A DNA stretch of 64,000 nucleotides, taken from NCBI RefSeq assembly GCF_035917675.1, contig NZ_CP109104.1, positions 1,488,001 through 1,552,000 on the forward strand, read 5' to 3'. This document shows positions 45,460-55,180 of this stretch, in pieces (the first letter of the stretch is position 1; every line of letters begins with the position of its first letter). Source of the stretch: Streptomyces sp. NBC_01775 (GTDB lineage: Bacteria > Actinomycetota > Actinomycetes > Streptomycetales > Streptomycetaceae). The position numbers and the translations under genes were made by a program. The notes under the pieces were generated by a model that was given only the letters and a program-made list of their open reading frames with translations, did no database searches and was not told the DNA's origin.

Positions 45460-46392
45460 TCAGCGCAAGGCCCTCGGCGGCGGCGCGGCCTTGGTACGAC
45501 GCGCGGGCCGTCGCCGACCGGTGCCCACGCAGACGGTGTTCGCCGCGACGATCACGACGATGGCCAGCGACGACGCCAGGTCGAGACGCTGATCGAGGAC
45601 CAGCAGGCCGACCAGTGCGGCGAACACCGGATTGACGCTCATGAAGACCCCGAAGAAGTGGGCGGGCACCCGGCGCAGGGCGAGCAGGTCGGCGAGGAAC
45701 GGCACGGCGGAGGACAGCGCGCCCGCCGCCAGCGCGCACAGCAGGGCACCGGGGGTGGGCCGGTGAAGCCACAGGACGACGATGCCGACGGGCAGGTAGA
45801 GCAGACCGGAGACGGCCGCGGCGGCGGCCGAACCCTGCACTCCGGGCAGGCGCTCGTCGACAGCCCGGTTGAGCAGGATGTAGCACCCCCAGCAGAGGGC
45901 GGCCAGCAGCGCCAGACCGATGCCGGGGTAGTCGGTGCTGGGGCCGGGACGGGCGAGGACCACCACCGCCACGGCAGCCGAGAGAGCACAGACCAGATCG
46001 GTACGGCGGCGGGAGGCCATCAGCGCCACCACGAGCGGGCCGAGGAATTCCAGGGTGACCGCGAGACCGAGCCCGATCCGGTCGATCGCCGCGTACAGCG
46101 CCAGGTTCATGGTCGCGAACACCGCGGCCAGCCCCAGCACAAGCCGCCACTGCGCGGCGGTGAAGGAGCGCAGCCTCGGCCGGCCCGCGCCCATCAGCAC
46201 CACGGCGGCCACCCACTGGCGCACCGCCACCACACCCACCGGCCCGAGGACCGGAAAGGCGAGCGCGGCGATGGACGCGCCAACCTGGTTGGACAGGCCG
46301 CTGCCCAGCATCAGCGCCATCCCCGGCCAGCGGGGAGAAGGTGCCTGGGCCTGGGCGGACGCCGTCGGCTCCGCGCGCGTGTCGATCGCCAT
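45460..46392 (-). CDS. EamA/DMT-family transporter (RhtA-like)
   Basis: About 310 residues with ten hydrophobic segments in two EamA repeats (MLGSGLSNQVGASIAALAFPVLGPVGVVAVRQW and GLALLAALCWGCYILLNRAV). The C-terminal part shows VPAHFFGVFMSVNPVFAALVGLLVLDQRL, typical of threonine/homoserine exporters of the RhtA type. It is divergent from a LysR regulator that probably controls it. The ATG at 46392 is preferred; 46410 would add six residues. Confidence 0.9.
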   Translation of the reverse strand: MAIDTRAEPTASAQAQAPSPRWPGMALMLGSGLSNQVGASIAALAFPVLGPVGVVAVRQWVAAVVLMGAGRPRLRSFTAAQWRLVLGLAAVFATMNLALYAAIDRIGLGLAVTLEFLGPLVVALMASRRRTDLVCALSAAVAVVVLARPGPSTDYPGIGLALLAALCWGCYILLNRAVDERLPGVQGSAAAAAVSGLLYLPVGIVVLWLHRPTPGALLCALAAGALSSAVPFLADLLALRRVPAHFFGVFMSVNPVFAALVGLLVLDQRLDLASSLAIVVIVAANTVCVGTGRRRPARRTKAAPPPRALR

Positions 46393-46460
46393 GGCCCGAC
46401 CATCCACCACACCGGCGCATACGAAAAATGCATCCGATGCCGTACCTATACGCTGGGCGC

Positions 46461-47330
46461 ATGGATGGTCATCCGGAGCTGGAACTGCGGCACCTGCGCT
46501 GCCTGGTCGCGATCGTCGACACCGGCAGCTTCACCGACGCGGCCATCGAGCTGGGCGTCTCCCAGGCGGCGGTCTCCCGCACACTGCTCGCGCTGGAGAG
46601 GGTCCTCGACGTGCGGCTGCTGCACCGCACCAGCCGCACCGTCACGCCCACCACCGCCGGCGTGCAGGTCCTCGCCCGCGCCAGACACCTGCTCACCGAG
46701 GCGGACAACCTGATACGCGAGGCCACGATCGGCCACACCCGGCTGCACATCGGTCACGCCTGGTCCGCGATGGGCCCGCACACCGCCGAGTTCCAGCGCC
46801 GCTGGCACACTCGCCACCCCGACATCGAACTCCGCCTGATCCGCCACAACTCCCCCACGGGCGGCCTCGCCGAGGGGTTGTGCGACCTCGCCGTCGTCCG
46901 CACAGCCATCGACACCCGCCGCTACGCCCACGCCCTCGTCGGCCAGGAGCGCCGCTTCGTCGCCCTCGCCTCCGACGACCCGTGGACCAGACGCCGCAGC
47001 ATCCGGCTGGCGGAGATCCGCGAGCGCACCGTGGCGGCGGACCGCCGCACCGGCACTACCACCTTGGACCTGTGGCCCGAAGGCGACCGCCCCGCGGTGG
47101 AGTACACCCACGACGTCGACGACTGGCTCGCCGCCATCGCCACCGGCCGCTGCGTCGGCGTCACCCCGCGGGCCACCGCGACCCAGTACCGCCGTGACGG
47201 CATCGCCTACCGCCCCGTGCGCGACGCCGACCCCGTTCCCGTCCACCTCATCTGGCGCCGCCACGACCCCCACCCCGCCACCCACTCCGCCGTCGCGCTG
47301 CTCGCCGACCTCTACCGTGAGCACGCCTGA
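46461..47330 (+). CDS. LysR-family transcriptional regulator
   Basis: A 289-residue LysR protein. The winged helix is LELRHLRCLVAIVDTGSFTDAAIELGVSQAAVSRTLLALERVL; the effector domain begins near HTRLHIGHAW. The start follows a TATACG-like -10 box by only about eight bases with no ribosome site, so a leaderless transcript is likely. The short divergent region (46393-46460) contains two ATGC repeats and would hold its operator. Confidence 0.92.
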   Translation: MDGHPELELRHLRCLVAIVDTGSFTDAAIELGVSQAAVSRTLLALERVLDVRLLHRTSRTVTPTTAGVQVLARARHLLTEADNLIREATIGHTRLHIGHAWSAMGPHTAEFQRRWHTRHPDIELRLIRHNSPTGGLAEGLCDLAVVRTAIDTRRYAHALVGQERRFVALASDDPWTRRRSIRLAEIRERTVAADRRTGTTTLDLWPEGDRPAVEYTHDVDDWLAAIATGRCVGVTPRATATQYRRDGIAYRPVRDADPVPVHLIWRRHDPHPATHSAVALLADLYREHA

Positions 47331-47927: not shown

Positions 47928-50192
47928 TCAGCCGGTGAACGAGGCGAGGAGCGCGGCGGCGAGTGCCGAGCGGGTCACCATGCCGGAGACGGTGGCGTGT
48001 TCGGAGCGGGCGTGGGCGCCGCCGCCGACGGCGCCGAGGCCGTCGAGCACAGGAGTGCCCGCCGACTGGGCGAAGTTGCCGTCGCTGGCGCCGCCGACCG
48101 AGGCCTCGCGCAGGTCGAGCCCCAGGGGCGCGGCGCAGCGGTGGGCCAGGTCGTAGAGGGCGGCGACCTCCGGCGTCCGCTCGAAGACGGGACGGTTCCA
48201 GCCGCCCGTCAGCGTCAGGCGCGTGCCCGGCAACGCGGGCTCCAGGGCGGCGAGCGCGTCGGCGATCCGGCGCTGTTCGTCCGCGTGGGCGACCCGTACG
48301 TCGAGGTCGGCGACGGCTTCGCCGGCCGTGACGTTGCTGCGCGTCCCGCCGTGCAGGACACCGACGTTGACGCTGGTACCGGCGTCGTGATCGGCGAGCG
48401 CGGCGAGCCGCAGGGTCTGGTGCGCCGCCTCGTGGACGGCGCTCGCGCCCGCCGTGGGGTCGAGTCCGGCGTGCGCCTCCTCGCCGTGCACGGTCAGCCG
48501 GAAGAGACCGACGCCCTTGCGTGCCGTCTTGAGCGCGCCGCCGTCGGCGCTCGCCTCGAAGACGAGCGCCGCGCGGGAGCGGCGGGCCTCGGCGGCGATC
48601 GCCTCGCTGGAGGCCAGGCTGCCCGTCTCCTCGTCGCCGTTCAGTAGCAACGTGCAGGCGGGGCGCGGCAGTCCGAGCGCGTCCAGGGCCCGCAGCGCCC
48701 ACACCAGCTGCACCAGCCCGCCCTTCATGTCGAAGACGCCGGGCCCGCTCAGCACGTCGCCCTCGCGGGTGAAGGGCCACTCGGCGAGGGTGCCGGCGGG
48801 CCAGACGGTGTCGTAGTGGCACAGCAGCAGCAGGGGCGGCTCAACTCCGCGCTCCCCGGGCCCGGTTGCCGCGTACCGGCGCAGGAGGATGTCGCCCGCG
48901 CCGTCCCTCGGGAGCAGTTCCTCCTCCTGCGGGGCGCCGAGCGCGTCGTCCAGCCAGCCTCGCAGCCAGGTCAGGCAGGCCTCCAGTGCGGCGGGGTCGT
49001 CACTGGGGCTCTCCAGCGCGGTGTAGGCGGCCAGATCGGCGACCATGTCCTCCTGGCGCGCCTCCAGCCAGGTGTGCACCTCGCGGGTCTGCTCCTCGGT
49101 GAGGAGGGCGCGTCCGGGGAGGGCCGGAGCCTCCCGCCGGCCGCCCTCTGCGAGCCGGTCGAGCGCGTCGAGCCGGGATTCGGCCATGCGCTCGGGGTGG
49201 CCCTCCAACTCCCTTAGTCCGGCTATCACTTCGCGCAGTACGGGGGTCCCGACGCCGGCCTTGGCCGCCTCTTGGAAGACGGTCTCGTAGTGGGTGGTGA
49301 CCTCGACGGGGCGGTGGCGGACGGCCAGGTCCCGCCAGATGCCGCTGCGGTCCTTGGCCTGGGTGCGCAGCCACGCGGTGAGGCGGCCGGCGGCCTCCTC
49401 GCGCTCCCCCCTCCCGGCGCCGGCGCGGAAGGCGAGGGCCTCGAACGCGTCGAAGGGCTCCAGCCGGATACCGAGCGCGTCCGCGACGTCGAAGACCTCG
49501 CGGGCCGCCGCGTACATCGCCGGGCGGTGCCGGTCGATCAGGTCGGCCATCGCGTCGTCGGCGAGCGCGGTCACGGCGAGCATCGCGCCGAAGCCCGCCT
49601 TGGCCCACAGATAGCCCTCGACGTTGTCGCTGGCCACGGCCCCGGTGCCGGGACGCAGGACCTCGACCAGCTCCCGGACCCGCTCGCCGGCCGGGGCGCC
49701 GCCCACCTCGCCGAGCACGAGGGCGCCGGGGCCGCCGTCGCGGATGACGCCGGGGCTCTGGACGTCGGCGAAGATGTTCACGAACGCGGCGACGGTGCGC
49801 TCCGCGCCGATGTGCTGGGCGATCAGCGGCTCGTTGAAGCCGTTCTGCACGGACACGACGAAGCCGTCCGCCGCCAGGCGCGGCGCGATCCAGCCGATCG
49901 CCTTCTCGGTGGCCTGTGCCTTGACGGCGAGCAGCACCCGCCGCAGCGGCGGCCCGTCGAACTCCTCGGGGGTGCGGGCGTCCACTTCCACCACGTCGCT
50001 CCCGCCGTCGGGGCGCAGCACCCGCAGTCCGTGCGCGCGGAGGGCGGCGACGTGGGCCGGGTCGGCGTCGATGAGGGTGACGGGACGCCCGGCGCGGACC
50101 AGCGCGTGGGCGAGGGTGCCGCCGATGGCACCACCCCCGACCACGATGATGACGTCGGAGACGTCAGAGGTCTCAGAGGTGTCGGCGGTCAT
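47928..50192 (-). CDS. Fusion: ketopantoate-reductase-like (ApbA/PanE) domain + M20 metallopeptidase
   Basis: A 754-residue two-domain protein. Residues 12-340 are an ApbA/PanE reductase: Rossmann loop VVGGGAIGGTLAHAL, LLAVKAQATEKAI, NGFNEPLIAQHIG and the catalytic-Lys region LWAKAGFGAML. From about 375 to the end it is an M20 carboxypeptidase-G2-like enzyme with the dizinc ligands LLCHYDTVWP, GPGVFDMKGG, GDEETGS and the last His in GAHARSEHAT, plus a lid domain. The domains meet at ALPGRALLTEEQTREV. ATG at 50192 has AAAGGA upstream; the longer frame runs through non-coding tandem repeats. It ends the minus-strand operon with SDR, MHS transporter and imidase-like genes. A single polypeptide that oxidises or reduces a 2-oxo/hydroxy acid and cleaves an amide bond is inferred. 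Confidence 0.88.
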   Translation of the reverse strand: MTADTSETSDVSDVIIVVGGGAIGGTLAHALVRAGRPVTLIDADPAHVAALRAHGLRVLRPDGGSDVVEVDARTPEEFDGPPLRRVLLAVKAQATEKAIGWIAPRLAADGFVVSVQNGFNEPLIAQHIGAERTVAAFVNIFADVQSPGVIRDGGPGALVLGEVGGAPAGERVRELVEVLRPGTGAVASDNVEGYLWAKAGFGAMLAVTALADDAMADLIDRHRPAMYAAAREVFDVADALGIRLEPFDAFEALAFRAGAGRGEREEAAGRLTAWLRTQAKDRSGIWRDLAVRHRPVEVTTHYETVFQEAAKAGVGTPVLREVIAGLRELEGHPERMAESRLDALDRLAEGGRREAPALPGRALLTEEQTREVHTWLEARQEDMVADLAAYTALESPSDDPAALEACLTWLRGWLDDALGAPQEEELLPRDGAGDILLRRYAATGPGERGVEPPLLLLCHYDTVWPAGTLAEWPFTREGDVLSGPGVFDMKGGLVQLVWALRALDALGLPRPACTLLLNGDEETGSLASSEAIAAEARRSRAALVFEASADGGALKTARKGVGLFRLTVHGEEAHAGLDPTAGASAVHEAAHQTLRLAALADHDAGTSVNVGVLHGGTRSNVTAGEAVADLDVRVAHADEQRRIADALAALEPALPGTRLTLTGGWNRPVFERTPEVAALYDLAHRCAAPLGLDLREASVGGASDGNFAQSAGTPVLDGLGAVGGGAHARSEHATVSGMVTRSALAAALLASFTG

Positions 50193-50308
50193 GCGAAGGT
50201 CCTTTCTCTGCGCGGGCCGCGGTGCTGCGAGTCGCGGTGCTGCGGGAGTCGTACGAGTGGTGCGAAAACCGTGCGGGCCCCCGCTCGGGGACGAGAGGTG
50301 TGCCGTAC

Positions 50309-50397
50309 GCGGAGGGGGCGTACCGACCGGTCGTCGTGCGCGGAGGGCGTACCGACCGGTCGTCATGTGTGGAGGGCGTGCCGACCGGTCGTCGTGC
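50309..50397. repeat. Three 29-bp repeats with palindromic core CGACCGGTCG
   Basis: The ten-base palindrome CGACCGGTCG occurs at 50324, 50353 and 50382, exactly 29 bases apart, each preceded by a GGAGGGCGT-like segment. It fills the 227-base gap upstream of the fusion gene. Regular phasing near three helical turns suggests a multi-site operator; a decayed simple repeat is the alternative. Confidence 0.85.
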
Positions 50398-50419
50398 GCG
50401 AAGGGGCAGGTCGGCGAGA

Positions 50420-51367
50420 TCAGCCCCGCGCGTGGGTACCGCCGGAGGGCGAGGGGACGGGGTCATCCGCCGCCTTTGGCGGCCACAGCCTCGGCAGGTG
50501 GCTCGCGCCGGTGCTGGAGCCGCCGTCGACGCGCAGGACCTCGCCGGTGATCCACGCGGCGTCGGGCCCCGCGATCCAGCGGACGGCGCGCGCGATGTCG
50601 GCGGGGGTGCCGGGGCGGCCCAGCGGGTTGGCGGAGACGGCCGCGGCGTATTCCGGCGCGACGGGGTTGACGTCGCTGTCGACGGGGACGAAGCCGGGGC
50701 TGACGGCGTTGACGCGGATGCCGTGCGGGCCGAGTTCGAGGGCCGCCGCACGGGTGGCCGTCTCCAGCGCGGCCTTGGTCGCGGCGTACGGCCCGCCGCC
50801 GGGGCGGGCCCGCAGCGCGGCACCCGAGGAGATGTTGACGACCGAGGCGCCGCGCCCCGACGCGACGGCCCGGCGGGCGAGTTCGGCCGTGGCGAGCACG
50901 GGGGCGCGGGTGTTGAGCGCGAAGAGCCGGTCCCAGCCGTCGGCGGTGACCTCCAGCATGTCGATCGAGGGGTAGGCCCCGGCCGCGTTGACCAGGATGT
51001 CGACCGGGCCGTGGGCCTCCCAGGCGCGGGCGACGGCGGTGGCCGGGCCCTCGGCGCCGGCCAGGTCCACGGTGTCGGCGGCGGTGACGACGCCCCCTTC
51101 CACCGGGCGGCCCCCTTCCCCCGGGCGGCCCGCCTCCACCGAGCCCGTCTCCCCCAGTTCGCGTGCCGTCCGCGTCAGCCGTTCGCCGTCCAGGTCCACC
51201 AGCGACAGCACCCCGCCGCCCGGCCCCTCCTGGGCGAGGGCGCGCGCGAACTCCTCGGCCACGGCCCTGCCGATGCCGCGTGCCGCACCGGTGACCAGGA
51301 CGTGCGGCGCCCCCGCCGCTGCCCTCTCCTGTCCGGCTGTGTCCTTCGCCGTTCCGGATGGCGCCAT
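50420..51367 (-). CDS. Short-chain dehydrogenase/reductase (SDR)
   Basis: A 315-residue classical SDR. NAD(P) site VLVTGAARGIGRAVAEEF, the NAAGAYPS segment, catalytic Ser in VVNISSGAA, and Tyr-Lys in GPYAATKAAL, then LGPHGIRVNAVSPGFV. Between the first and second strands there is a 20-residue insertion of six-residue repeats (GRPGEGGRPVEGG) encoded by three 18-base tandem repeats. Its ATG overlaps the MHS transporter stop by one base (TGATG). It likely oxidises an alcohol intermediate of the compound imported by that transporter. Confidence 0.9.
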   Translation of the reverse strand: MAPSGTAKDTAGQERAAAGAPHVLVTGAARGIGRAVAEEFARALAQEGPGGGVLSLVDLDGERLTRTARELGETGSVEAGRPGEGGRPVEGGVVTAADTVDLAGAEGPATAVARAWEAHGPVDILVNAAGAYPSIDMLEVTADGWDRLFALNTRAPVLATAELARRAVASGRGASVVNISSGAALRARPGGGPYAATKAALETATRAAALELGPHGIRVNAVSPGFVPVDSDVNPVAPEYAAAVSANPLGRPGTPADIARAVRWIAGPDAAWITGEVLRVDGGSSTGASHLPRLWPPKAADDPVPSPSGGTHARG

Positions 51368-52698
51368 CAGTCGAACTCCTTGTCCTTGGTCTCGGGCATC
51401 GTCAGATAGACCACGAGCGAGATCAGCGAGGCGACCGAGACGTACAGCCACAGCCAGTCGCGGAGTCCGGCCTCGTTGAGCCAGGTGGTGAGGTAGGGCG
51501 CGGTGCCGCCGAAGAGGGCGACGGCCAGCGCGTAGGGCAGGGCGATGCCGGTGGCGCGCACCTCGGGCGGGAACTGCTCGGCCATGATGACCGCGCAGTT
51601 CGCTGAGTATCCGAGGATCAGCAGCATGCCGACGAGCTGGACGAGGAAGACGCTGAGGAAGCTGTCGCCCATCAGGTGCAGCAGCGGCCACGACAGCAGG
51701 ACGAAGCCGCCGGCGAAGACCGCCATGGTCGGCTTGCGCCCCACCCGGTCCGAGAGCCGCCCCGCGAAGGGCAGCAGCACCACGAAGACGATCAGACACA
51801 GGGTCTGCGACAGCAGCGCCTGGTTGAGGGGGATGCCGGTGGCGAGGTTGGCGTAGGTGGGCAGGTAGTTGACCCAGATGTAGTAGGTCAGCGTCCCCGC
51901 GACGGTGATGCCCGCGACGCGCAGCGCCGCCGCCGGGTGCTCGGTGAACATCGCCTTGAGGGGGTTGGACCGGGACCGGCCCTGGCCGTGCGCCTTGGTG
52001 AAGGACTCGGTGTCCTCGACGGAGACCCGCAGCCACAGGCCGAGCAGCCCCAGCAGCCCGCCGACGACGAACGCGGCCCGCCAGCCCCAGGTGTGCAGCG
52101 CCTCGTCCCCCAGCAGCGAGGTGACGAGGGTGCCCAGCAGCGAGGCGATGAGCACCCCGCCACCGACCGAGACCTGCTGCCAGGACCCGGCGAAGGCGCG
52201 CCCGCCGGGGGCCGCCGACTCCACCAGGAAGGCCGAGGAGGAGCCGAACTCGCCGCCCGCCGAGAAGCCCTGCACCAGCCGGGCCAGCAGCAGGACGACC
52301 GGCGCCGCGATGCCGATCGTCTCGTAGCCGGGGGTGAGGGCGATGACGAAGGAGGCGCCCGCCATCAGCGCGATGGTCAGCGTGAGGCCCTTCTTGCGGC
52401 CGTGCCGGTCGGCGTAGGCGCCGAGGAAGGCGGCGCCGACCGGGCGCATCACGAAGCCGACGGCGAAGACCGCGAGGGTGGCCAGCAGGGCGACGGCACC
52501 CTCGGACTTCGCGAAGAAGACATCCGCGATGATCTTGGCAAAGATCGAGTAGAGCGCCCAGTCGACCCACTCGACGGTGTTGCCGATGGTCCCGGCGACG
52601 ATCGCCTTGCGCTGGGACTTGGTGAGCTTGGGCGCCGGGCCGGTGGCGGCGGGCACCGCCGAGGGGGTGCCAGGTGTGTCAGGTATGCCGGATTTCAT
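51367..52698 (-). CDS. MHS-family (metabolite:H+ symporter) MFS importer
   Basis: A 443-residue importer with 12 hydrophobic segments. It has the MHS signatures AGTIGNTVEWVDWALYSIFA, FVMRPVGAAFLGAYADRHGRKKGLTLTI and LVQGFSAGGEFGSSSAFLVE. Members take up dicarboxylates, betaines, shikimate or aromatic acids. The start overlaps the imidase-like stop by four bases and the stop overlaps the SDR start. It brings in the substrate of the operon; a dicarboxylate-like or cyclic imide/hydantoin compound is a reasonable guess from the neighbours. Confidence 0.92.
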   Translation of the reverse strand: MKSGIPDTPGTPSAVPAATGPAPKLTKSQRKAIVAGTIGNTVEWVDWALYSIFAKIIADVFFAKSEGAVALLATLAVFAVGFVMRPVGAAFLGAYADRHGRKKGLTLTIALMAGASFVIALTPGYETIGIAAPVVLLLARLVQGFSAGGEFGSSSAFLVESAAPGGRAFAGSWQQVSVGGGVLIASLLGTLVTSLLGDEALHTWGWRAAFVVGGLLGLLGLWLRVSVEDTESFTKAHGQGRSRSNPLKAMFTEHPAAALRVAGITVAGTLTYYIWVNYLPTYANLATGIPLNQALLSQTLCLIVFVVLLPFAGRLSDRVGRKPTMAVFAGGFVLLSWPLLHLMGDSFLSVFLVQLVGMLLILGYSANCAVIMAEQFPPEVRATGIALPYALAVALFGGTAPYLTTWLNEAGLRDWLWLYVSVASLISLVVYLTMPETKDKEFD

Positions 52699-53645
52699 CG
52701 TCCGTCCTCCCCCGGGGTGCCGGTGAGCTGTGCGCGTGCGGCCTCCGCGAGCTGTGCGTGGGTGGCCCACCAGACGTCGGGGTGGCCGCCGATGTGGTCC
52801 AGCAGCTCCCGCAGGACCACCATCCGGGAGCGGTGCCCGATCACATGCGGGTGCAGGGTGAGCTGGAAGACGCCGCCGGTCCGGTACGCCTCGTCGAATT
52901 CGTCGCGCCAGATCTCCAGCACGTCGCGGGGCCGGGTGTGGGGGCGCACGGAGCCGTAACGGTCCATGGTGAAGTACGGCGCGTCGTCGCGGATCCAGTC
53001 GACGGGTATCTCGACCAGCCCGGTCCGGCCGCCTTCGGCCAGCACCTCGTAGGGCTCGTCGTCGGCCATCAGCGAGGAGTCGTAGGCGAAGCCGAGGTCG
53101 AGGACCGTGCCGAGGGTGGAGTCGGAGAAGTCCCACGAGGGGGTGCGGATCCCGGTGGGCCGGGTGCCGGTGAGGTCGGTGAGGGTGTCCAGGGCGCGGC
53201 GTATCAGGTCGCGCTCGTCCTCGGCGGCCAGCAGGGTGTTGCGCTCGTGGATCCAGCCGTGCACCGCGACCTCGTGACCGTCCTCGGCGTAGCCGCGTGC
53301 CTCGTCGGGGTGGAGCAGGGCCGAGACCGCCGGCATGAAGAAGGTCGCAGGGACGCCGCGCCGCCGCAGCAGTTCCCGGATCCGTACGGCGCCGACCCGC
53401 GCGCCGTACTCGCCCTGCGCGAGCCTGCCGGGGCTGGTCTCCCCGTCGCGCAGCGGGATGGTCTCGTGGTCGGAGTCGAAGGACAGCGCGACGGCGGCAC
53501 GCGCGCCGCCGGGCCAGCGGGCCGGGGTGAGCGCGCGCCCGGCGCGTACGGCCTCGACGTGCCCGCGCCACACGGACTCGGGCCACTGCCAGGAGGGGGA
53601 GGGCGGCGGCGCGGACACGGGGGTACCGGGATCGGATGTCGGCAT
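52695..53645 (-). CDS. Cytoplasmic polysaccharide-deacetylase-fold amidohydrolase (imidase/allantoinase-like)
   Basis: A 316-residue NodB-fold hydrolase without signal peptide or membrane segment. Motifs: ALSFDSDHETIPL (metal Asp), EVAVHGWIHERN (HxxxH-type), GIRTPSWDFSDSTL and LTLHPHVIGHRSR. This profile matches the PuuE/HpPgdA-like branch, which includes metal-dependent cyclic imide hydrolases and PuuE allantoinases, more than secreted chitin or peptidoglycan deacetylases. A cytoplasmic role next to an MHS importer fits hydrolysis of a small imide, ureide or N-acyl compound. It leads the tight part of the operon, 87 bases after the Lrp gene. Confidence 0.86.
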   Translation of the reverse strand: MPTSDPGTPVSAPPPSPSWQWPESVWRGHVEAVRAGRALTPARWPGGARAAVALSFDSDHETIPLRDGETSPGRLAQGEYGARVGAVRIRELLRRRGVPATFFMPAVSALLHPDEARGYAEDGHEVAVHGWIHERNTLLAAEDERDLIRRALDTLTDLTGTRPTGIRTPSWDFSDSTLGTVLDLGFAYDSSLMADDEPYEVLAEGGRTGLVEIPVDWIRDDAPYFTMDRYGSVRPHTRPRDVLEIWRDEFDEAYRTGGVFQLTLHPHVIGHRSRMVVLRELLDHIGGHPDVWWATHAQLAEAARAQLTGTPGEDGR

Positions 53646-53732
53646 GGGACCTCTCCGGAGGAAGGAGGGAGGAAGGGGAGAAAGAGGAGGGGAGCGGGGA
53701 ACGAGGCAGAGCCGAAGGAGGGGACGAAAGGG

Positions 53733-54737
53733 TCAGACGAACTGGTCCAGGCGCGTCCACGCGCCCTTGAGGGTGACCAGGTGGAGGGTGATGTCGGAGG
53801 CGACGAGACCGGGGAGGGCCCCGATGACGTCGTCGGTGTAGCGGAACAGGTCGGTGCGGCGCGGCAGCACCATGTGCCCGACCAGGTTGAAGCGGCCGGT
53901 GGCGGCGGCCAGGAACTTCGTCCCCGGATGCTCGGCCAGCTGCCGTCCGGCCGCCTCCAGACGGCCGGGCTCGATCGACAGCCAGAGCATGAACTCCGCC
54001 TCGTAGCCCAGCAGCGCCGGCTCGACCAGGGTGCGGAAGTGCAACATGCCCCGCGCGACCATCCGGTCCAGCGCGCGGGCGACACTGGACTCGCCGCGCC
54101 CGAGCGTCCTGGCGAGGGTGCTGACGGGCAGCCGTCCGTCCTTGGCGAGTTCGCCGACGACGGCGCTCTCCAGCTCGGTCAGCGGCGTCGGCGCCTGGTC
54201 CCAGCCGGCCCGCTCGTAGGGCAGGGTGCGCCCGGGGCGCAGGTCGGCCACGGCCTCCGGCGGGAGCAGGCCGGTGTCCCACAGCGCCGCCGAGGTGAAG
54301 GTGCGGATCACCGCGACATGTTCCGTGCTGGTGATCAGGTGCGCGCCCGGCAGATCGGTGTAGAGCAGGCGCAGCAGTTCCTCGTTGTCGTGGGCGACGA
54401 AGTCGACGATCAGGTCGGCCGTGCCCGTGACGAGGGCGAGGAAGCGGACCTCCGGGCGCTCGGCCAGCAGCTCCGCCAGCTCCAGGCCCTTGCCGGGCCT
54501 GGCCTGCACCCGTACGAGCATGGAGGAGCCCGAGCCCGTACGGTCCAGCTCGACGGCGCCGACCACGTGCAGCAGCCGACGCTCGCGCAGGGAGTTGAAC
54601 CGGCGCTGTGCCGTCGATTCGCTCGTCCCCGCCCAGCGGGCGATACCGCTCCACGGCGCACGGCCGTTGAGCTGGACCGCCGCGATGATGCGGCGATCCA
54701 GCGCATCGATCATCTCGGCACTCGCTCGCGGGATCAT
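53733..54737 (-). CDS. Double-length Lrp/AsnC-family regulator
   Basis: A 334-residue protein with two Lrp units. Unit 1: HTH DALDRRIIAAVQLNGRAPWSGIARWAGTSESTAQRR and RAM domain to about 160. Unit 2: LTELESAVVGELAKDGRLPVSTLARTLGRGESSVARALDRM and RAM domain to the end (FLAAATGRFNLVGHM). Ordinary Lrp proteins have about 150 residues and one unit. It lies directly upstream of, and in the same direction as, the imidase/MHS/SDR/fusion operon and probably controls it in response to an amino-acid-like effector. Confidence 0.9.
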   Translation of the reverse strand: MIPRASAEMIDALDRRIIAAVQLNGRAPWSGIARWAGTSESTAQRRFNSLRERRLLHVVGAVELDRTGSGSSMLVRVQARPGKGLELAELLAERPEVRFLALVTGTADLIVDFVAHDNEELLRLLYTDLPGAHLITSTEHVAVIRTFTSAALWDTGLLPPEAVADLRPGRTLPYERAGWDQAPTPLTELESAVVGELAKDGRLPVSTLARTLGRGESSVARALDRMVARGMLHFRTLVEPALLGYEAEFMLWLSIEPGRLEAAGRQLAEHPGTKFLAAATGRFNLVGHMVLPRRTDLFRYTDDVIGALPGLVASDITLHLVTLKGAWTRLDQFV

Positions 54738-55180
54738 GGCCGAGACGGTAGGCAGCGCGTCACACAGCCGTCAATGCCGGAATCCCGCAGATCGAGGTAA
54801 TGGACTCGTGAAATCCCGCGCGTGAAGGGGATTGGCAGGGGATTTCCCCCATGTCGTGCGCGGGGTCGGCCGGAGTCCGGCCGTGCGGGATCCCGTCGCG
54901 GCGGGGTACGGAAAAGACCGGCGGGGTGCGGAGGCGGGAAGACGGGGCGGGGGTGGAGACGGGGCGGGGGTGGAGACGGGGCGGGCCGGGCATCTGGCGG
55001 AGCCCGTCGCCAAGAGCACCGGCACCGGCAGCACTCTGAAGAGCTAACGCTCAGCGCGCCTGCCGCCGGGCCGCGGGGCCGCCGGTCGATGCTGCTCGAC
55101 GTGTCTGTCCGCACCCGCGCGCGAGTCGCGTGAGTGGTGCGGCACCTGCCACGCGTCTCTCCGGAAGGCGGTTCATTGCG
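54738..55180. other. Divergent intergenic region with G-rich repeats
   Basis: Between the Lrp gene (minus) and the prenyl synthase operon (plus). No credible gene. AT-richer promoter-like sequence near 54795-54835 lies upstream of the Lrp gene. A G-rich tandem repeat occupies 54938-54986. Confidence 0.5.
54938..54986. repeat. Tandem 17-bp G-rich repeats
   Basis: Two 17-base units (54938-54954, 54955-54971; GGAGACGGGGCGGGGGT) and a partial third. The plus strand has many runs of three or more G and could fold into a quadruplex, about 200 bases upstream of the meroterpenoid-like operon. Confidence 0.8.

Follow-up and report, generated by a model that had tools for sequence, protein, structure and literature searches.

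A 64,000-nucleotide stretch of the Streptomyces sp. NBC_01775 genome (contig NZ_CP109104.1, positions 1,488,001 to 1,552,000; hereafter the window) carries a run of five genes for a tandem Lrp regulator, a NodB-fold hydrolase (HYD), an MHS-like symporter, an SDR dehydrogenase and a protein in which an ApbA dehydrogenase is fused to an M20 amide hydrolase. The run raises the question of which compound, if any, these proteins may take up and break down. A preliminary description had read them as a candidate for an undescribed catabolic operon and had offered one model, in which a cyclic imide, hydantoin or lactam-like compound is imported, opened by HYD, oxidised by the SDR and ApbA and finally cleaved at its amide by M20. 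We place at slightly better than even the chance that the genes form a patchily distributed, Lrp-controlled cassette for the catabolism of a small compound, probably carboxylated, whose ring is of imide type or a closely related cyclic amide. The features of the locus are collected in Table 1. All five genes have intact frames and lie on the minus strand (47928-54737), which confirms their common direction. Their family assignments also held in Pfam and NCBIfam, although the match of the symporter, which is full-length, stays under the family cut-off.

Table 1. Features of the locus, with positions counted from the first nucleotide of the window
Feature	Position	Strand	Description
Lrp regulator	53733-54737	minus	tandem Lrp/AsnC-type, 334 aa
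HYD	52695-53645	minus	NodB-fold hydrolase, 316 aa; imidase/PuuE/HpPgdA branch by sequence
MHS-like metabolite/proton symporter	51367-52698	minus	443 aa; full-length match to TIGR00883
SDR dehydrogenase	50420-51367	minus	315 aa; tetrad residues kept
ApbA-M20 fusion	47928-50192	minus	754 aa; ApbA about 1-350, M20 about 366-754
Putative lrp promoter/operator	54745-54789	minus	TGCGGGATTCC; -35 TTGACG, 18-nt spacer, -10 TACCGT
29-nt tandem repeat, three copies, palindromic core	50316-50405	minus	in the SDR-ApbA spacer

Matches to HYD at E ≤ 1e-30 were found in 24 of 199 Streptomyces genomes, and eight Streptomyces genomes, the window's own included, possess an orthologue of at least 79% identity. 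Twenty HYD stretches from Streptomyces genomes were examined, among them the seven orthologue loci other than the window. All seven, which are all of the other stretches examined with a HYD at least 77% identical, show the order Lrp-HYD-MHS-SDR-ApbA/M20 with ApbA and M20 fused, and the linkage of the genes is therefore beyond chance. The flanking genes differ among the seven, except in the related pair L046/L047. An eighth locus, with a HYD of 75% identity, is a decayed copy, and the cassette was absent from the other Streptomyces HYD loci examined (66-72% and 31-42% identity). ApbA itself was found in ten of the 199 genomes, eight with complete cassettes and two with decayed ones (G149 and G150). 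Nine of these ten hold an operon-type HYD (eight with all genes, one decayed), and the tenth has a decayed cassette without HYD. Of the two decayed cassettes (L053 and L184), in one Lrp, HYD, SDR and ApbA survive as fragments; the other keeps only a frame-broken ApbA with M20, and its flanks resemble those of L047. In a class-wide sample ApbA was detected at E ≤ 1e-60 in five of 394 genomes, the window's and four others, and in all four others MHS, SDR and ApbA are adjacent in that order. M20 is fused in the window and in L142, while in L143 and L145 it follows as a gene of its own. In L144 ApbA is followed by an AbgT-type gene, and no M20 is reached before the end of the stretch.

The set was then traced in named genomes through the best 80 of at least 580 HYD relatives, a sample biased to close relatives, whose loci are related so that counts are not independent. 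After removal of three loci in which the gene finder called no HYD (L097, L137 and L139), 77 named HYD loci remained. Among these best 80, the nearest named relatives of the window HYD are from Streptomyces. MHS, SDR and ApbA all lie within 7 kb of HYD in 42 of the 77, and 38 of the 42 have M20 as well. The cassette occurs, for example, in Streptomyces (among others S. albidoflavus NRRL B-1271, L063), Saccharopolyspora, Nonomuraea, Aeromicrobium, Actinoallomurus, Pseudonocardia, Curtobacterium, Streptoalloteichus, Nocardioides, Amycolatopsis and Agrococcus. Up to 7 kb from HYD, the gene families that most of these loci have in common are those of the cassette itself. The preliminary description had staked its proposal on a neighbourhood conserved in relatives, and this is what the search found, in seven of seven other Streptomyces loci and 42 of 77 named ones. 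Pairwise identities of six modules correlate at 0.84-0.95 across 41 loci, but this was not used as evidence because species relatedness and repeated genomes could yield it. In four Streptomyces loci (L109, L118, L122 and L132) HYD falls in a separate clade (support 100/97) outside that of the window (100/98), and a divergent and more distant Lrp serves as regulator, while MHS, SDR and ApbA-M20 are as close to those of the window as in other Streptomyces. From the HYD tree, it looks as if HYD and the regulator were replaced in these loci. A HYD of another clade thus stands beside window-like partners, so HYD appears to be retained despite the change of lineage.

Gene junctions in the window are less tight than first described. 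The claimed overlaps of 1-4 bp are present at two of the four junctions, HYD/MHS (4 nt) and MHS/SDR (1 nt), but Lrp and HYD are separated by 87 nt and SDR and ApbA by 227 nt. The latter spacer holds the tandem repeat of Table 1, whose core is CGACCGGTCG. The SDR-ApbA junction is a 4-nt overlap in 30 of the 42 named cassette loci, with starts as called by the gene finder; in the nearest relative (L061) the two genes are 51 nt apart.

Pfam labels HYD as Polysacc_deac_1, and its best NCBIfam model is PuuE, whose equivalog cut-off it does not reach (104.6 vs 424.6 bits). A HYD profile built from 32 relatives was run against solved structures. It scored 349 bits with 3rxz, 210 with HpPgdA (3qbu) and 151-163 with the PuuE group including 3s6o, against at most 70.5 bits for classical peptidoglycan and chitin deacetylases. 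These scores place HYD in the imidase/allantoinase branch and well away from cell-wall deacetylases, as had been proposed, and the cell-wall deacetylase that the preliminary description set against its own proposal is at odds with them. D59, H129 and H133 of HYD are invariant in all 13 sequences aligned; among the 32 relatives D59 is invariant and both histidines are at least 90% conserved. One aspartate and two histidines of 3qbu, which we take to be the metal ligands of HpPgdA, align with these residues, and the three are probably the metal ligands of HYD too. In the profile alignments 1z7a and 3s6o have no counterparts of D59 and H133. No secretion signal was seen at the HYD N-terminus, which was read by eye and without a predictor, and the enzyme is probably cytoplasmic.

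HYD genes of other kinds were also observed. A second HYD in the same genome (L051:9506-10441, C1:162256-163122) is 69% identical to that of the window and has as neighbours an M20-family gene and a gene judged HAD-like by eye; L048 and L050 have a similar arrangement. At L056:10514-11398 a HYD paralogue without the two metal-site histidines adjoins an apparently complete HYD. A distant HYD of about 38-39% identity closes a run of permease-like, SDR-like and agmatinase-family genes at L054:5530-10316 and L055:5784-10495, the agmatinase family being assigned by scan in L054 only.

Genes for amide hydrolases recur beside HYD. An M20, M20D or C45 gene was found within 7 kb of HYD in 56 of the 77 named loci, comprising 38 of the 42 with the cassette and 18 of the 35 without it. 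The 9.34-Mb genome of the window has 14 PF01546 matches, so that a 15-kb stretch would contain about 0.02 by chance, although no probability is claimed for the linkage since the loci are related. In L080, L103 and L115 HYD and M20 stand side by side in the absence of the other cassette modules. Such varied company (M20, M20D, C45 and, on plasmids, isoaspartyl peptidase) is expected if HYD makes an amide which needs a second enzyme. Other arrangements were noted as well. At L090:712-6385 and L115:5068-8685, HYD and M20 lie beside an o-succinylbenzoate synthase/NSAR-type enolase, a family-less protein and an amidohydrolase, the neighbour families having been scanned in L090 only. In Nocardioides iriomotensis an AbgT-type transporter gene lies between ApbA and M20 (L112:14102-15622), with a second AbgT and an M20D-cluster gene upstream; L144 looks like the same strain.

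Among 314 plasmid records with a match, 18 regions were viewed; 14 are annotated, and the other four (L153, L157, L162 and L163) were read by gene finder. An SDR gene overlaps HYD or lies within 10 nt of it in eight of the 14 annotated regions. Alphaproteobacterial plasmids of Sagittula, Sulfitobacter and Alloyangia encode HYDs of about 60% identity. These three roseobacter loci have GntR, creatininase-family, ApbA, SDR, HYD and isoaspartyl peptidase genes in a row with an ABC transporter adjoining, and their ApbA is of the same subfamily as that of the window. Alloyangia has in addition a separate annotated puuE 5.7 kb from HYD. In Caballeronia, MHS-, ApbA-, SDR- and HYD-like matches are consecutive. 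Agrobacterium and a Rhizobium have HYD with SDR and, close by, creatininase-family and isoaspartyl peptidase genes, and on plasmids of Roseomonas, Paroceanicella and Methylobacterium HyuA/HyuB-type genes lie near HYD and SDR. OYE-type genes are near HYD in seven of the 77 named loci, in L140 directly after M20; the window's own genome has nine OYE-family matches. In Microvirga (L157) an OYE-like gene, recognised by eye, lies near SDR and HYD.

The fusion protein is composed of ApbA and ApbA_C followed by Peptidase_M20 and M20_dimer (Pfam/NCBIfam) in one chain. Its ApbA part just passes the TIGR00745 cut-off (144.4 vs 141.35 bits). K198 and E297, presumably the catalytic residues, are invariant in the ten subfamily members aligned, and an acidic residue (D42) follows the second strand. 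None of the ten has an asparagine within eight residues after the catalytic lysine, while the solved relatives 3hwr and 2ew2 have one at Lys+4, presumably the pantoate-binding asparagine of ketopantoate reductase; in the 3hwr alignment a four-residue gap follows the lysine, which leaves its exact counterpart uncertain. This suggests that the name 2-dehydropantoate 2-reductase is wrong for the subfamily. The best solved-structure match of the M20 part is carboxypeptidase G2 (CPG2, 1cg2). H459, D461, D488, E521, E522, E546 and H727 are present; H459, D488, E521, E522, E546 and H727 were found invariant in the 22 fusions aligned and align to 1cg2 residues which we take to form the metal site with the catalytic glutamate. 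R667 aligns with an arginine of CPG2. The fusion occurs in 29 loci including the window, all from Streptomyces, a number which is not a species count because some strains are represented more than once. Streptomyces L081 and L106 encode ApbA and M20 separately, as do the loci of other genera having both; in the 25 plasmid matches listed, of 35 records hit by ApbA-M20, the match is confined to the M20 half. The fusion suggests that ApbA and M20 catalyse consecutive steps.

The symporter matches TIGR00883 over the full model (2e-115, 385.8 bits) under the cut-off of 443.45, and it is therefore regarded as a divergent MHS-like protein; the next-best model, of TcuC type, is likewise below its cut-off. 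The SDR is a classical one with the tetrad N152, S181, Y194 and K198, to which we assign the usual roles. An aspartate (D58) after its second strand suggests a preference for NAD.

The regulator matches HTH_AsnC (9e-16) and AsnC_trans_reg (4e-13) in its N-terminal half (Pfam/NCBIfam), and a further helix-turn-helix/Lrp-like unit starts at about residue 184. The double Lrp regulator of the preliminary description is thus a tandem protein of two such halves. The lrp start codon begins 7 nt past the -10 hexamer TACCGT, and the transcript is probably leaderless if promoter and transcription start are as predicted. Regions upstream of lrp were compared in 28 loci, of which L043 is not one. In 20 of them a TGCNGGATTCC-like element is followed by TTGACG and by a -10-like hexamer near the start codon; of the remaining eight, seven lack TTGACG over the stretch compared, and L078 has the hexamer but not the element. 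The exact operator pattern occurs once in the window, and a second site has two mismatches. No operator copy was found between lrp and HYD in the 26 of 28 loci having a spacer there. Downstream of the cassette, an EamA/LysR-type pair (45460-47330, named by reading) also flanks the Streptoalloteichus cassette (L108:14230-16103, 78-79% identity). A link with the cassette was rejected because the EamA-type gene is found in 53 of 199 genomes and the cassette ApbA in 10, and the pair is probably unrelated.

In the pathway that we favour, the MHS-like symporter would import the ring compound and the SDR, probably with NAD, would oxidise a hydroxyl, most likely on the ring, to give a hydrolysable imide. 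HYD, probably metal-dependent, would open the ring, and a half-amide or an N-acyl amino acid would result. ApbA would then oxidise an alpha-hydroxyl in this compound, and M20, fused to it, would cut the remaining amide, so that the products could enter central metabolism. The gene content, the linkage, the fusion, the retained catalytic residues and the recurrent pairing of HYD with an amide-hydrolase gene are direct observations; the class of substrate, the use of cofactors and metal, the order of the steps, the regulation and what becomes of the products are deduced from them. In the order first proposed ring opening preceded SDR oxidation; the SDR may instead act before ring opening, because its gene adjoins HYD in eight of 14 plasmid regions and because a parallel fungal route runs in that order. 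Otherwise the first model stands in its conserved catabolic cassette, its imidase-branch hydrolase and the repeated pairing with amide hydrolases (56 of 77 loci), while nothing favours in particular the hydantoins or ureides which it had also listed.

Several points weigh against this pathway. M20 enzymes usually cleave N-acyl amino acids and not primary amides. M20 was not seen within 7 kb of HYD in four of the 42 cassette loci (L091, L096, L108 and L116), nor were any of the seeded amidase types in 17 of the 35 non-cassette loci. HYD keeps other company in Antarctobacter, Thermomicrobium, Roseicitreum, Paraburkholderia, Rhizobium etli and R. jaguaris, in some of them with an SDR. No substrate was found for the closest solved relatives, 3rxz and HpPgdA, and HpPgdA is inactive on allantoin and acetylated compounds according to the available part of PMC3084791. 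The CPG2-like M20, the Nocardioides AbgT and the NSAR-type neighbours point to N-acyl amino acids, and so to a salvage pathway, which we consider unlikely overall and yet the most credible of the alternatives. Here HYD would open an N-substituted succinimide, aspartimide or similar compound to an N-acyl or beta-aspartyl amino acid, M20 (in roseobacters the isoaspartyl peptidase) would free the amino acid, and SDR and ApbA would process the acyl part. R667 fits this reading, as its CPG2 counterpart presumably binds a carboxylate, and so do the isoaspartyl peptidases of the roseobacter loci and the ABC transporters, annotated as oligopeptide/dipeptide type in two plasmid regions and of peptide type elsewhere by reading. 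Salvage alone does not explain two conserved dehydrogenases, however; no lysine stands opposite CPG2 K208, which we take to bind the glutamate side chain, and the AbgT and NSAR contexts are rare (one and two of the 77 named loci).

Other readings have less in their favour. A hydantoin or ureide pathway, with HYD as allantoinase or hydantoinase and M20 as carbamoylase, could draw on PuuE as the best family of HYD and on the HyuA/HyuB-type genes of the three proteobacterial plasmids, yet it is quite improbable given the low PuuE score, the D59 and H133 that 1z7a and 3s6o lack, the CPG2 likeness of M20 and the separate puuE of Alloyangia. Natural products with imide or lactam rings are known. Detoxification of such a compound (for example a glutarimide antibiotic), or self-protection against it, would suit the patchy distribution and decay in Streptomyces, but the conserved presence of an importer-type protein, and shared families near HYD that are the cassette's own, make it a very improbable purpose. 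The domains and the TIGR00745 score of ApbA would agree with a breakdown of pantothenate or pantoate in which M20 cuts pantothenate and ApbA is a true ketopantoate enzyme. Since the asparagine is missing and HYD would be left without a role, this scheme is hardly to be expected. The Pfam label of HYD is what speaks for a locus that deacetylates peptidoglycan or chitin, an explanation that is scarcely credible beside the lack of a visible secretion signal, the much closer imidase-branch structures and partners that are metabolic enzymes and an importer.

Through the cassette, many genes annotated as polysaccharide deacetylase and 2-dehydropantoate 2-reductase are tied to a common catabolic unit. 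Its substrate, once found, would allow dozens of loci in actinobacteria, and a few in roseobacters, to be annotated, and might uncover in bacteria a route for imide-type compounds of a kind described to date in fungi.

Among known systems, the PuuE allantoinase group (1z7a, 3cl6) is of the same fold branch as HYD and acts on a small cyclic substrate, but 1z7a has no D59/H133 counterparts and HYD scores far under the PuuE model. Like CPG2, the M20 domain has the metal-site residues and an Arg-Pro motif, but here it is fused to ApbA. HpPgdA (HP0310) shares the branch, the aligned aspartate and histidines and the lack of a signal peptide with HYD, whereas its neighbours, a polyamine importer and a D-Ala-D-Ala peptidase in the part of PMC3084791 available, are unlike the cassette.

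The claim that no such pathway had been described stands for the open-access literature, outside which most subscription journals lie, apart from one partly parallel fungal pathway (PMC9304392, available in part), the only route found there for such a gene set or imide chemistry; the best-placed literature match, PMC3936707, is unrelated as far as its accessible part goes. In the lower nicotinate route of Aspergillus nidulans, the OYE HxnT, the SDR HxnW, the imidase HxnM and the amidase HxnN act in sequence, and in many fungi hxnM and hxnW are conserved as a divergently oriented pair (PMC9304392 and PMC8478523, from the parts available). From the metabolites of mutants, the accessible text of PMC9304392 assigns cyclic imide hydrolysis to HxnM, which is of the same family as HYD; it gives HpPgdA as the closest structure to HxnM, and describes two metabolites as new to any organism and several steps as having no prokaryotic equivalent. 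It also reports 64% identity of HxnM with the Pseudomonas putida cyclic imide hydrolase AAY98498, and this ties the branch to imide hydrolysis. As a tentative and rather improbable special case, the cassette may correspond in bacteria to the fungal route. After import of a hydroxylated piperidinone or pyrrolidinone, the SDR would oxidise it to a hydroxy-imide (of 3-hydroxyglutarimide or malimide type), which HYD would open to a 2-hydroxy-omega-amide. Oxidation by ApbA would yield the 2-oxo-omega-amide, from which M20 would release 2-oxoglutarate or oxaloacetate. Human omega-amidase accepts such 2-hydroxy and 2-oxo omega-amides as substrates (PMC5485471, available in part). The fungal route has no ApbA, HxnN is FAAH-like where the cassette has M20, and the upstream ring hydroxylases are not part of the cassette; no pyridine hydroxylase was recognised among the recurring neighbour clusters, viewed as sequence starts only and without a family search. 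The likeness of HYD to HxnM is one of family. Both systems have an SDR, an imidase-branch hydrolase and an amide hydrolase in common, and in bacteria the gene set is gathered in one locus in 38 of the 77 named loci.

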